Positions 5,292 through 9,002 of a DNA stretch of 64,000 bases are shown one piece after another. The stretch is from Brevundimonas fluminis. Lineage in GTDB: Bacteria > Pseudomonadota > Alphaproteobacteria > Caulobacterales > Caulobacteraceae. The notes below the pieces were generated by a model that had not been told where the DNA came from, did no database searches, and worked only from the letters and a program-made list of their open reading frames with translations. Within the stretch, counting starts at the first letter, position 1. Each line of letters starts with the position of its first letter. The translations under genes and the position numbers were made by a program. The stretch covers positions 310,001 to 374,000 of the forward strand of contig NZ_RQWJ01000004.1 of NCBI RefSeq assembly GCF_003934285.1, given 5' to 3'.

Positions 5292-6359
5292 ATGCCCAGC
5301 AAAGACGACGTCCTGACCGCCCTCGACCGGATCATCGACCCGAAGACCGGTCGGGGACTGGTCGCGTCAGGGCGGGTGCAGGGGCTGGTCGTCGCCGACG
5401 ACAGGGCGGGGTTCGCCCTCGACGTCCCCGCAGCGGACGCGGCCCTGTATGCGCCCGTGCGCGACGCGGCCGAGGCGGCGCTGAGGGCGCTGCCGGGAAT
5501 GGCGCGGACGTCCGTCGTGCTGACGTCCGAGACGCCGCCGGTCGCACCGCGCCGCACCGCGTCCCTGTCGCCGCAGGCCATGGACCAGACGCGCCCGCGC
5601 GCCCCCGTGCCGACCGAAAGACCCGCCCACGTCCGCAAGGTGCTGGCCGTCGCCGGCGGCAAGGGCGGGGTCGGCAAGTCGACCGTGGCGGTCAATCTGG
5701 CCGCCGCCCTGGCCGCGCGCGGTCTCTCCGTGGGGGTGCTGGACGCCGACGTCTACGGCCCCTCGCTGCCGACGCTTCTCGGGATCTCCGGCAAGCCGGC
5801 CTACGTCGACGGCGCCATCGAGCCTCACCGGGCGCATGGGTTGAAGGCCATGTCGGTCGGCCTGTTGACCCAGGCGTCTGACGCCATGGTCTGGCGCGGG
5901 CCGATGGCGTCCCAGGCCCTGACCCAGATGCTGACCCAGACGCGCTGGGGCACGCAGGCCGAACCGCTGGACCTGCTGGTCGTCGACCTGCCTCCCGGCA
6001 CGGGCGACGTCCAGCTGACGCTGATCCAGAAGACGCCGCTGGACGGGGCGGTGATCGTGGCGACGCCGCAGGAACTGGCGCTGGCCGACGCGCGTCGGGC
6101 CCACGCCCTGTTCGAGAAGGTCGGCGTGCCGACGCTGGGCCTGATCGAGAACATGACGGGCGAGGTGTTCGGGCGGGGCGGGGCCGAGGCCGAGGCGGCA
6201 CGGCTGGGCGTTCCCTTCCTCGGCGACCTGCCGCTGGACGGGGCCCTGCGCCGGGCCAGCGACGCGGGGACTCCGGCGGTCACGACCGAGCCGGAGGGGG
6301 AGACCGCGCGGCGTTTCGCCGGGTTCGCCAGGGCGCTGGCCGATCGGCTGGGCCTCTAG
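5292..6359 (+). CDS. mrp: Mrp/ApbC family iron-sulfur cluster carrier ATPase
   Basis: Mrp (ApbC) proteins carry and deliver Fe-S clusters in the cytosol. The 355-residue protein has an N-terminal MIP18/DUF59 domain (about residues 1-80, beginning with helix KDDVLTALDRIIDPKTGRGL), then a ParA/MinD-like ATPase domain with the deviant Walker A GGKGGVGKST (about 121-130), the DADVYGPSLPTLLG block and DLPPGTGDVQLTL. The CxxC cluster-binding pair found in many Mrp proteins is not obvious here: after LIENMTGEVFGRGG the usual cysteines are absent. The ATG at 5292 is preferred because the domain starts there. Convergent with folA, overlapping four bases. Confidence 0.9.
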   Translation: MPSKDDVLTALDRIIDPKTGRGLVASGRVQGLVVADDRAGFALDVPAADAALYAPVRDAAEAALRALPGMARTSVVLTSETPPVAPRRTASLSPQAMDQTRPRAPVPTERPAHVRKVLAVAGGKGGVGKSTVAVNLAAALAARGLSVGVLDADVYGPSLPTLLGISGKPAYVDGAIEPHRAHGLKAMSVGLLTQASDAMVWRGPMASQALTQMLTQTRWGTQAEPLDLLVVDLPPGTGDVQLTLIQKTPLDGAVIVATPQELALADARRAHALFEKVGVPTLGLIENMTGEVFGRGGAEAEAARLGVPFLGDLPLDGALRRASDAGTPAVTTEPEGETARRFAGFARALADRLGL

Positions 6360-6898
6360 CGGCGTTCCAGCGTGCGGAAGGTGAAGGCGTGGTCGTCCTT
6401 CTCGCCCGGCTCGTGCCGCTCGGAGAAGACTTCGGTCCAGCCGGCTTCGTCAAACGGGGGGAAGAAGGTGTCGCCGTCGGGCGCCGCGTCCACCTCGGTG
6501 ATGTGCAGCACCCGCGCGCGCGGCAGGGTCTCGGCGTACAGCCTCGCGCCGCCGATGACGCAGATCTCGTCCACGCCGTCCTCGGTCGCCTGTTCGCGCG
6601 CGATCTCCAGCGCCTCTTCCAGCGAACGGCTGACCAGGGCCTGGCCCATGGCGGTCCGCGCCTGCCCGTCCTCGCCCCAGCCCTCGTCGCGGGTCAGCAC
6701 GATGTTAAGCCGGCCGGGCAGGGGCTTCAGCGGAAGGCTCTCCCACGTCGCCCGACCCATCAGGCACGGCTTGCCGATCGTCAGCGCCTTGAACCGCTGC
6801 AGGTCGCTGCGCAGCCGCCACGGCAGCCCGCCGTCTCGCCCGATCACGCCGTTGCGGGCGCGCGCGACGACCAGGGACAGGCGGGGGATCACGTGCAT
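6356..6898 (-). CDS. folA: Dihydrofolate reductase
   Basis: DHFR reduces dihydrofolate to tetrahydrofolate with NADPH, regenerating the cofactor oxidised by thymidylate synthase. The 180-residue protein contains the classic blocks: ARARNGVIGRDGGLPWRLRSDL (substrate pocket, including the acidic residue after LPW), GRATWESLP, LNIVLTRD, and ICVIGGARLYAETLPRA. It is the last gene of a minus-strand group thyA - 55-residue ORF - membrane protein - folA. Its ATG lies inside the last codons of the membrane protein (10-base overlap), so its translation is probably coupled to that inserted gene. Confidence 0.96.
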   Translation of the reverse strand: MHVIPRLSLVVARARNGVIGRDGGLPWRLRSDLQRFKALTIGKPCLMGRATWESLPLKPLPGRLNIVLTRDEGWGEDGQARTAMGQALVSRSLEEALEIAREQATEDGVDEICVIGGARLYAETLPRARVLHITEVDAAPDGDTFFPPFDEAGWTEVFSERHEPGEKDDHAFTFRTLERR

Positions 6899-7341
6899 CG
6901 AGGAAATTTGAACCCACGCCGGCTCAGCATTCGCTTAAGTTCGCAATACGTCTGCTCAGATGTCTTAGCGCCTTGGAATGTTTCCCGAACAAAAGGTTCC
7001 TTCCAGATGCGCTCGAAACACTCGCTGATCTGCTGCTCCAAATTATTGACAGATCGCCCTCTTATTATGCGAAAATCGTTCGCAAACATAGCGCAGCGCT
7101 CGTAGTGGTTTAGTATATCTATCAATTTGCTTCGATACGGGTTTATTCTCTTTATGCGTGATAGTTCTTCAAATTTGGCGTCGATCTCTTCAGATAACTT
7201 GGCGCAATGTTGAAATTCGGCAACCCGAGAGTTCCTCAAAAGAGCGTATGCGGCTACACAAAACGAAAGCAGCGCTGCGATCGGCGCCAAGAGCGTAACC
7301 CAAAGGGGTGGCCCGCCATTTTCGACGACGGTGATGATCAA
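6889..7341 (-). CDS. Single-pass membrane protein of unknown function in the thyA-folA islet
   Basis: No firm family match. With a TTG start at 7341, two bases after the stop of the upstream 55-residue ORF, the protein has 150 residues. It has a short N-terminal segment, one strong membrane helix (about residues 13-33, LWVTLLAPIAALLSFCVAAYALL) and then a helical, charged, probably cytosolic domain containing LIDILNHYERCAMFAND and FERIWKEPFVRETF. That layout recalls DUF4760-type proteins, but the match is weak. Base composition is clearly AT-richer than the neighbours and codon use includes AGA, TTA and ATA. The tail overlaps the folA start by ten bases. Longer readings upstream would overlap the 55-residue ORF. 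Confidence 0.65.
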   Translation of the reverse strand: MIITVVENGGPPLWVTLLAPIAALLSFCVAAYALLRNSRVAEFQHCAKLSEEIDAKFEELSRIKRINPYRSKLIDILNHYERCAMFANDFRIIRGRSVNNLEQQISECFERIWKEPFVRETFQGAKTSEQTYCELKRMLSRRGFKFPRCT

Positions 7342-7342
7342 G

Positions 7343-7510
7343 CTACTTCTTCGTCGGCGGCTTAACATTGTGATTTGTTGTCGACACGCTGCGAGTAGCT
7401 CCCTTCGGAGAACCACTGTTTGTGCGAACCGAGCCCGTGACGGTGCGCGAGCCAGCCGACCCAGATCTCGAAGAGCCAGAACTCGGCGGCTTGGAGGGGG
7501 GCTTAGCCAT
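7343..7510 (-). CDS. Small Ser/Thr/Pro/Lys-rich protein, 55 residues
   Basis: A short frame too small for usual gene callers. It starts ATG at 7510, thirteen bases past the thyA stop, and stops TAG at 7343, two bases before the next gene. The product begins [20 protein letters not shown], contains the TVTGSVRTNSGSPKG stretch and ends NVKPPTKK. It is basic, low-complexity and likely disordered. Tight spacing to both neighbours and shared lower GC suggest it is co-transcribed with the membrane protein as a two-gene unit. No function can be assigned. Confidence 0.6.
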   Translation of the reverse strand: MAKPPSKPPSSGSSRSGSAGSRTVTGSVRTNSGSPKGATRSVSTTNHNVKPPTKK

Positions 7511-7522
7511 ATTTCATCAACC

Positions 7523-8380
7523 CTAGACTGAAACTTGCGCCTTAATGTGCGGCCAAGCTTCATAACCTTCAAGCGTCACGTCCTCGCGGGTGAAGGCGAA
7601 CAGGTCGTCCCGGGGTGTCAACGTCAGGCGGGGCAGGGGGCGCGGCGTGCGCGACAGCTGCTCGCGCGCCTGCTCGACATGGTTCAGATACAGGTGGGCG
7701 TCGCCGAACGTGTGGACGAACTCGCCGGGCTCCAGCCCCACGACCTGCGCCATCATGTGGGTCAGCAGGGCGTAGCTGGCGATGTTGAACGGCACGCCCA
7801 GGAAGACGTCGGCCGAGCGCTGGTACAGCTGGCAGCTCAGCTTGCCGTCCGCCACGAAGAACTGGAACAGACAATGGCAGGGCGGCAGGGCCATGTCGTC
7901 GACGTCGGCCGGGTTCCACGCCGTCACGATGTGACGCCGGCTGTTGGGATTGCGCGTCAGGCTTTCGACCACCTTCTCGATCTGGTCGATCACGCGCCCG
8001 TCGGGCGCCGACCACGAGCGCCACTGCTTGCCGTAGACGGGGCCCAGCTCGCCCTCGGCGTCGGCCCACTCGTCCCAGATGCGCACGTCGTTCTGCTTCA
8101 GCCAGGCGATGTTGGTCTCGCCGCGCAGGAACCACAGCAGCTCCACGATGATGCTGCGCAGGTGCAGCTTCTTGGTGGTCAGCAGCGGAAAGCCCTTCGA
8201 CAGGTCGAACCGCATCTGACGGCCGAAGACGCCCAGCGTGCCGGTGCCCGTCCGGTCCCCGCGCTCGGCCCCGTTCTCCAGGATGTCGCGCAGCAGGTTG
8301 AGGTACTGCCACTCGGGATGGTCTGCCGGCGCGGCCTGCGTCTCGGCTTCCAGAAGGGCGCGGTGGGCGAGGGCGTTCAT
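7523..8380 (-). CDS. thyA: Thymidylate synthase
   Basis: ThyA methylates dUMP to dTMP using methylene-tetrahydrofolate, producing dihydrofolate that FolA recycles. The 285-residue protein has the N-terminal block [31 protein letters not shown], the catalytic region [13 protein letters not shown] with the active-site Cys in PCHC, the dUMP-binding [19 protein letters not shown] and the [10 protein letters not shown] motif. The ATG at 8380 is chosen because it precedes the conserved domain; upstream in-frame sequence is not conserved-looking. It is the first gene of the group ending in folA. Confidence 0.97.
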
Positions 8381-8450
8381 CCTCCCAGACTGACCCCCAA
8401 ACCCGATTCGCGGCGAGCCGAATCGACCGGCGGCCGGTCCAGGTTGTGGA

Positions 8451-9002
8451 TCAGCCTGTGAACCCATCCGCCTCCAGAAACGCCGCCTCTTCCGCCGTCG
8501 TCTCGCGGCCGAGCGCGGCGTTGCGGTGGGGAAAGCGGCCGAAGCGGGCGACGACGCCGTGGTGATGCTCGGCCCAGCGGTCGTCGGGCTTCCGGTCCAT
8601 GCGGGTCTGGAACAGCTCCACCTGACGGTCCTGATCGGCCATGTCCTCGGAGTGCTGCAGCGGCAGATAGAAGAAGCGCCGGACGTCGCCTTCGATCTCC
8701 AGATCGTGGCCGGCGTCCAAGGCCCGTCGCGCGAACATGCGGGCCAGCGGATCGGTGGCGAAGGCGTGGCCGGTGTCGCGGAACGCGTTCCTCGGGAACT
8801 GGTCCAGCAGGATCAGCAGGGCCAGCGACCCCTCGGCGGTCTCGGCCCACCCGTCCAGCTCGCGCCGGGCGGCGGCGACGTGGGCGTCGTGGAAGCGGCG
8901 GCGGAACAGGGCGTCGAAGGCGTCGTCCTTGGCGAACCATTTCTGCGGCCCGGCCTCTTTCCAGAAGGCGACGACGTCGGAAGGCGATATGTCTTGGGTC
9001 AT
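8451..9002 (-). CDS. DUF924 family protein
   Basis: DUF924 proteins are small all-helical proteins of the TPR-like superfamily without a proven reaction. The 183-residue product shows the family signature: [22 protein letters not shown] at the start, [15 protein letters not shown], the strongly conserved [18 protein letters not shown] (about residues 66-83) and AFATDPLAR, then YLPLQHSED. The ATG at 9002 begins the domain and overlaps the start codon of the divergent reductoisomerase (shared CATG at 9000-9003), leaving no separate promoter space. It lies upstream of thyA with a 70-base gap. Confidence 0.85.

Follow-up and report, generated by a model that had tools for sequence, protein, structure and literature searches.

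Organization of the islet between thyA and folA

A slot for small genes exists between thyA and folA in this genus; where junctions were examined at the level of single bases, the cargo is exchanged precisely at gene ends. The two-gene module that occupies the slot in the window (the whole 64,000-nucleotide stretch of Brevundimonas fluminis DNA analysed here) recurs elsewhere. We tentatively read this islet as a horizontally exchanged two-gene module, most likely a small membrane-acting immune device of the abortive-infection type, while putting the chance that this is right somewhat below even.

The islet is built in the order thyA, a 55-codon open reading frame, a membrane protein gene and folA, all on the minus strand. 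The upstream flank, thyA (7523..8467), was located by the ORF call and the thyA survey, and its stop codon ends at 7523. Twelve bases further follows the small ORF (7343..7510), which begins with ATG, and after a single base the membrane protein gene (6889..7341), which begins with TTG and encodes 150 residues. The downstream flank, folA (6356..6898), is supported by the ORF call and the junction survey. Its overlap with the membrane gene amounts to 10 bases if folA starts at the ATG (6898) and to a four-base GTGA (6889..6892), in which the membrane-gene stop lies over the folA start, if the in-frame GTG (6892-6890) is used. No other part of the window is as AT-rich as the islet, whose G+C content of 51.3% compares with a mean of 70.0% (s.d. 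3.2%) in 600-bp windows along the whole 64 kb; the islet contains the minimum, and the twelve lowest 600-bp windows all overlap it. The bias extends to the codon positions, where the G+C fractions at positions 1, 2 and 3 are 0.50/0.41/0.54 for the membrane gene versus 0.68/0.44/0.88 for thyA. The ORF coordinates, spacing, TTG start and AT-rich composition given in an earlier note on this DNA are thereby confirmed. No repeats of the kind expected for a target-site duplication were found at the islet borders. The direct repeats, two pairs of 12-13 bp, are located within folA and thyA more than 100 bases off the islet ends, and two pairs of inverted repeats of 14-15 bp lie near the islet.

Exchange of cargo at the junction

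The genome closest to the window by ThyA (G017, 97% identical) carries different cargo at the same position, and the next closest (G066) has an exact empty site in which the TGA of thyA overlaps the GTG of folA as GTGA. The window membrane gene ends on folA with a GTGA identical to that of the empty site. The G017 cargo is likewise AT-rich and overlaps both neighbours by four bases, thyA with GTGA at its start and folA with TTGA at its end. It resembles Hypoth_Ymh (PF09509) and PD-Lambda-3_B (PADLOC, E 1.3e-7), but its protein is unrelated to the window pair and it comes with no peptide.

Traces of the exchange appear in the flanks. In the last two 30-base windows of thyA, identity between the window and G017 drops to 0.73 and 0.63, whereas G017 and G066 share 0.90 and 1.00 there. 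Over the remaining 27 windows the mean identity to G017 is about 0.92, with all but two, at 0.53 (-450 to -420) and 0.70 (far 5' end), lying between 0.83 and 1.00. The last 50-60 bases of thyA (7523..7576, minus strand) are hence foreign and were presumably imported with the islet, and on the folA side identity is regained within about ten bases of the folA start. From this pattern we infer that recombination in flanks common to donor and recipient brought the islet in, and that in the donor the module probably already lay beside thyA. A separate 30-base patch of thyA about 420-450 bases before the stop has identities of 0.53 and 0.60 between the window and the two sisters, which share 0.90 with each other; it is possibly a second small recombined patch.

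The survey of the genus found thyA in 96 of the 101 genomes searched, in some of them on fragmented contigs, and one junction per genome was counted (n = 96: 30 plus 65 loci plus L002; the second copy from genome G050, L108, was left out). Directly 3' of thyA, 31 of the 96 loci, the window's own included, carry cargo of at least 100 bp, 60 continue at once with a short gene of about 100 codons (e.g. in L016), and five show neither. We take this short gene to be MazG-like on reading its sequence, for which Pfam gives a weak PRA-PH match only. It lies 3' of thyA in 85 of the 96 loci and is absent at the window locus; among the 31 cargo loci, 25 have the cargo in front of it and six are without it. 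A second slot, after the MazG-like gene, could be surveyed in part, since folA lies beyond the fetched stretch in 15 loci. Its contents include an HSDR_N_2 protein, genes that we presume from reading to be aquaporin-like, and a protein with a small partner that we likewise label TIR-like by reading and that has no Pfam or PADLOC match. Among 25 loci of the family from other genera (L158-L182), thyA and folA are directly adjacent in 13, with gaps from -13 to 29 bases, six show wider gaps, in three cases with a MazG-like gene, and six have no folA within the stretch. Because thyA adjoins folA in 13 of these 25 loci, the sequences suggest that the empty slot is the older state.

Conserved flanks thus enclose varying or absent cargo across the 96 loci, and in this respect the junction is like a hotspot. 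The acquisition postulated in the earlier note is supported: the pair is clear in two of 131 genomes of the genus, the nearest relatives have other cargo or none, and the 3' end of thyA is foreign. The comparison of thyA-folA loci proposed there showed both presence and absence, and the pair is missing from most relatives.

Exchange hotspots in bacterial chromosomes (PMC5635113) and core defence hotspots, e.g. in Pseudomonas aeruginosa (PMC10250203), are known and share with our slot the conserved core flanks and a variable cargo including defence-like genes. The thyA-folA slot differs in lying within a pair whose frames overlap when it is empty, as seen in G066, and in keeping start/stop overlaps in the cases inspected. 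Among the literature matches listed, judged by title and opening of the abstract, no paper treated the thyA-folA slot or a peptide-membrane module.

Cargo of the slot

The slot is occupied by one gene or two, in genome G080 by three, with a length under about 900 bp in front of the MazG-like gene, and 14 of the 31 cargoes have a defence-like appearance: nine TIR proteins, four HEPN-like ones and the PD-Lambda-3-like gene of G017. PF10137 was matched in all nine TIR proteins, and the five tested with PADLOC all matched a TIR effector. Of ten window genes used as a control, two also matched PADLOC models at E<=0.01 and one of these reached 6.7e-7; we therefore treat bare PADLOC matches as weak evidence and give weight to the strong TIR scores. 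In six of the nine TIR proteins the C-terminal part matches DUF4760 (PF15956) at E<=0.01, in four over the cut-off. These proteins resemble the CAP12/Pycsar kind of TIR effectors (PF10137) and have the slot in common with the window protein, which matches DUF4760 weakly, but they carry a TIR domain where the latter has a transmembrane helix, and a single ORF fills their slot. No direct profile similarity was detected between their DUF4760 part and the membrane proteins.

The label HEPN-like is presumptive, given by reading, and Pfam had no match in the one protein tested. Three of the four cargoes so named consist of a gene with a partner and the fourth (L021) is a remnant; PADLOC PDC-M28A was matched in all three tested, and L021 was placed with them by clustering. 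Eight further cargoes are alpha/beta hydrolases with no look of defence, one by Pfam and the others by clustering. Three pair a small protein that we presume to be DUF2188-like with one that we presume to be TIR-like; the TIR-like proteins tested have no Pfam or PADLOC match. One cargo is a P-loop-like protein with weak matches only, and another a membrane protein without a PADLOC or Pfam match. The remaining ones are one short ORF, the peptides and membrane protein of G080, and two islets of the window kind.

The membrane protein

The 150-residue protein has a single hydrophobic segment. The best 19-residue hydropathy window, at residues 17-35, reaches 2.31 and the next best 0.10, in agreement with the one-helix protein proposed in the earlier note. 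A transmembrane helix is predicted at residues 13-35 (7237..7305, minus strand) from hydropathy and a low-confidence structural model (AlphaFold, mean pLDDT 50.3). An impression of DUF4760 had also been recorded. The match to this family scores 15.6 bits (E 0.018), which gives the impression weak support, and since the score is under the curated cut-off of 25 bits the protein is not assigned to PF15956. The weak match recurs in three of the four members of the membrane protein family, and one of the four has a weak Hol_Tox match (E 0.041). In hhalign, the alignment of the four membrane proteins (A7) against six DUF4760 proteins reached Prob 74.5 (E 2.7e-5, 69 columns), and with fewer sequences Prob 33 (window/G050 pair) and 53 (G105/G045 pair). 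Taken together with the low-confidence helices of the model, this points to a transmembrane helix followed by a helical part that may be distantly related to DUF4760, at a level under the formal thresholds.

DUF4760 itself is a domain of unknown function with a comparable plan, an N-terminal transmembrane helix followed by helices with an LNxYE-like signature. Of seven relatives over the cut-off, four have a short ORF ending near their start, but none of these ORFs, whose start sites were chosen by hand, bears the peptide motif described below or exceeds 31% Ser+Thr+Pro. Our search for literature on DUF4760 found one paper, a genomic-island study of Serratia (PMC9964261). Neither protein of the window pair has an NCBIfam match or a Pfam match above cut-off, and neither matches PADLOC-DB 2.0.0 up to E 1; the membrane proteins of G105, G050 and G080 are without a PADLOC match up to 0.01.

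The small peptides

The 55-residue peptide consists to 49% of serine, threonine and proline, is rich in lysine, and has an excess of K+R over D and E of +10; by its composition it is probably disordered. Aligned with the 59-residue counterpart in G050, it shows two shared stretches, AKPP close to the N-terminus and SVSTT....KPPTK at the C-terminal end. When all nine frame combinations of the window and G050 ORFs were compared, the annotated frame gave a z of 4.2 and the others 1.1 at most, and the annotated-frame score of 56 stood against a maximum of 57 in 300 shuffles. The comparison thus lends good but not overwhelming support to a frame-specific conservation of the small ORF.

The C-terminal segment of the window peptide (SVSTTNHNVKPPTK, 7349..7390, minus strand) holds the motif S-x-(S)-TT-[SAN]-[HQ] and KPPTK, both seen in the alignment with G050, and its STTxH core also occurs in the peptides of G105 and G045. 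The motif is present in all six peptides of the four systems (window, G050, G105 and G045). The full motif occurred in 0 to 0.11% of 20,000 shuffles per peptide and the looser core TT[SAN][HQ] in 0.09-2.2%, figures that are optimistic because the pattern was derived from these very six peptides. A search of 101 genomes with the window peptide matched only itself; this search is insensitive, as the G050 peptide failed to pass it. The first peptide of the G105/G045 type, searched against 131 genomes, was clear only in G045 and G105 (4.7e-33 and 2.2e-30), all others having E 0.02 or worse.

Distribution and relatives of the module

The module is rare. A profile of the membrane protein found two clear cases among 131 genomes of the genus, the window's own and G050, with G105 third at E 0.02, and a single-sequence search of 200 relatives recovered G050 at 7.8e-22. 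In G050 the genes are arranged as in the window, thyA being followed by the 59-codon ORF and, after one base, by a membrane protein gene with a TTG start and then folA. The two membrane proteins are 35-37% identical, and dS between the two systems is saturated, which allows no estimate of dN/dS. Beyond the genus, a search of 299 genomes of the order returned the own genome only, and a class-level search of 385 genomes with A7 gave the own genome as a convincing match besides four weak ones (E 0.014-0.030). On contigs of a wider set of genomes the query P0001 had no match and the query A1 matched only the G050 contig CANJLQ010000013.1. Viral contigs yielded no match to the membrane protein, and plasmids and phages none or short weak ones (best E 0.02 and 0.09). 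Nine matches in congeners (E 1e-4 to 1e-3), confined to residues 2-85 or less and lying in ORFs of 605-676 residues, were rejected as likely due to transmembrane composition.

Two relatives lie away from thyA. Both carry two tiny ORFs in front of the membrane gene: these have 49 and 63 codons in G105, and 50 and 56 in G045, where the first was taken from an internal ATG. The membrane protein of G045 is 52-55% identical to that of G105. The window/G050 and G105/G045 membrane proteins align with Prob 86.6 (E 4.5e-6) in a single hhalign comparison. Neither thyA nor folA occurs within the stretches around the G105 (11.0 kb) and G045 (9.9 kb) modules, and the thyA of G045 is on a different contig. 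Between G105 and G045, dN/dS is about 0.29 for peptide 1, 0.40 for peptide 2 and 0.22 for the membrane protein, rough values with dS above 1, which suggest that purifying selection acts on the membrane protein and on both peptides. As neighbours of the G105 module we read a methyltransferase-like and an AbiEii-like gene; the G045 module (L121/L129) seems to adjoin what we presume to be a comM-like gene fragment, with a presumed IS1595-like transposase nearby. Weak matches to the G105 membrane protein occur at L122-L127.

In G080 (L049, 817-1566, minus strand) the slot after thyA contains two tiny ORFs and then a one-helix membrane protein. Each tiny ORF encodes eleven consecutive prolines, the first stops two bases before the second, and the second overlaps the membrane gene. 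The shared motif is absent from the G080 peptides. Since no relationship of its membrane protein to the others was detected, G080 was rejected as a homologous member and is treated as no more than an analogue; as a side reading, its gene plan may have arisen convergently or be a very distant form of that in the window.

Proposed function and alternative explanations

The most likely reading of the pair is a small immune module of a new kind. By analogy with the TIR cargoes of the same slot, the membrane helix may stand in for the TIR enzyme, and we infer for the disordered peptide a role as regulator or bait. Such a module would enter through homologous recombination between conserved flanking sequences, and its translation would be coupled to thyA and folA. 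The STTxH motif of the peptide would bind the cytosolic helical part and keep the membrane protein inactive; alternatively, the peptide could serve as bait. A phage that modifies, cleaves or titrates the peptide would then allow the one-helix protein to assemble and damage the inner membrane. A more specific version, speculative and in our judgement somewhat unlikely, posits an immune family not described before, whose one-helix effector would be kept off by one or two disordered S-x-(S)-TT-x-[HQ] peptides that double as bait, and whose genes would occupy a scarless slot within a gene pair for essential biosynthesis.

Other functions have to be weighed against the immune reading. The tiny ORFs could be regulatory leaders, whose translation, or stalling at proline runs, sets re-initiation at the TTG or GTG of the membrane gene. 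The layout would fit, with stop and start one base apart and a TTG in both the window and G050, and with the eleven-proline runs, two-base spacing and overlap in G080. A leader would scarcely need its peptide sequence conserved, however, as indicated by the dN/dS of about 0.29 and 0.40, the frame-specific signal in the window and G050 and the motif in all six peptides, and two ORFs bearing one motif would be needless; we regard this explanation as unlikely. A similarly low probability is assigned to a neutral or selfish passenger without an immune role, whereby any short gene that fits the overlapping junction is kept awhile and then lost. The mixed cargo speaks for it, with hydrolases in the first slot and aquaporin-like genes in the second and with differences between close genomes, as does the exact empty site of G066, yet purifying selection seems to act on the G105/G045 proteins and the module was caught twice in one slot at 35-37% identity.

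Two small genes in one unit, the peptide first, and a one-helix protein with a weak Hol_Tox match in one of four members (E 0.041) would also suit a toxin-antitoxin stability pair, in which a membrane toxin and a peptide antitoxin keep the locus in the genome. We consider this distinctly improbable, as there is no match to a known family over cut-off and post-segregational killing has little to stabilise, because the locus adjoins core genes in an assembly of 2.64 Mb. Least credible, and very improbable, is a module for nucleotide stress that shares its regulation with thyA and folA. It would account for the location within the dTMP unit and draws on the MazG-like gene, so labelled by reading, 3' of thyA in 85 of 96 loci. 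The G105 and G045 relatives, though, have no thyA or folA within 9.9-11 kb, the thyA of G045 being on another contig, and nothing visible connects the other cargo with nucleotides. The earlier note had offered thymidylate stress and phage infection side by side. The first link is unsupported, because alpha/beta hydrolases and other cargo look unrelated to nucleotides and two relatives of the module lie away from thyA and folA; the second gains indirect support from the TIR, PDC-M28A-like and PD-Lambda-3-like cargo of the slot.

The thyA-folA junction offers in this genus a concrete, testable site of small, partly immune-type gene exchange, at which no integrase-sized cargo was seen and which lies inside a core metabolic pair with overlapping frames when empty. 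The module couples a membrane protein to tiny motif-bearing peptides that are easily overlooked in annotation, and the repeated position together with the shared motif provides a way to find them. If the peptides do bait phage enzymes, a new sensing principle would be at hand.

The loci that combine a PF10137 TIR domain with a C-terminal DUF4760 match are L037, L050, L066, L084, L090 and L098, and the TIR cargoes of L084 and L090 are nearly identical. This pairing could be a hint that DUF4760 serves as a sensor or scaffold in immunity.
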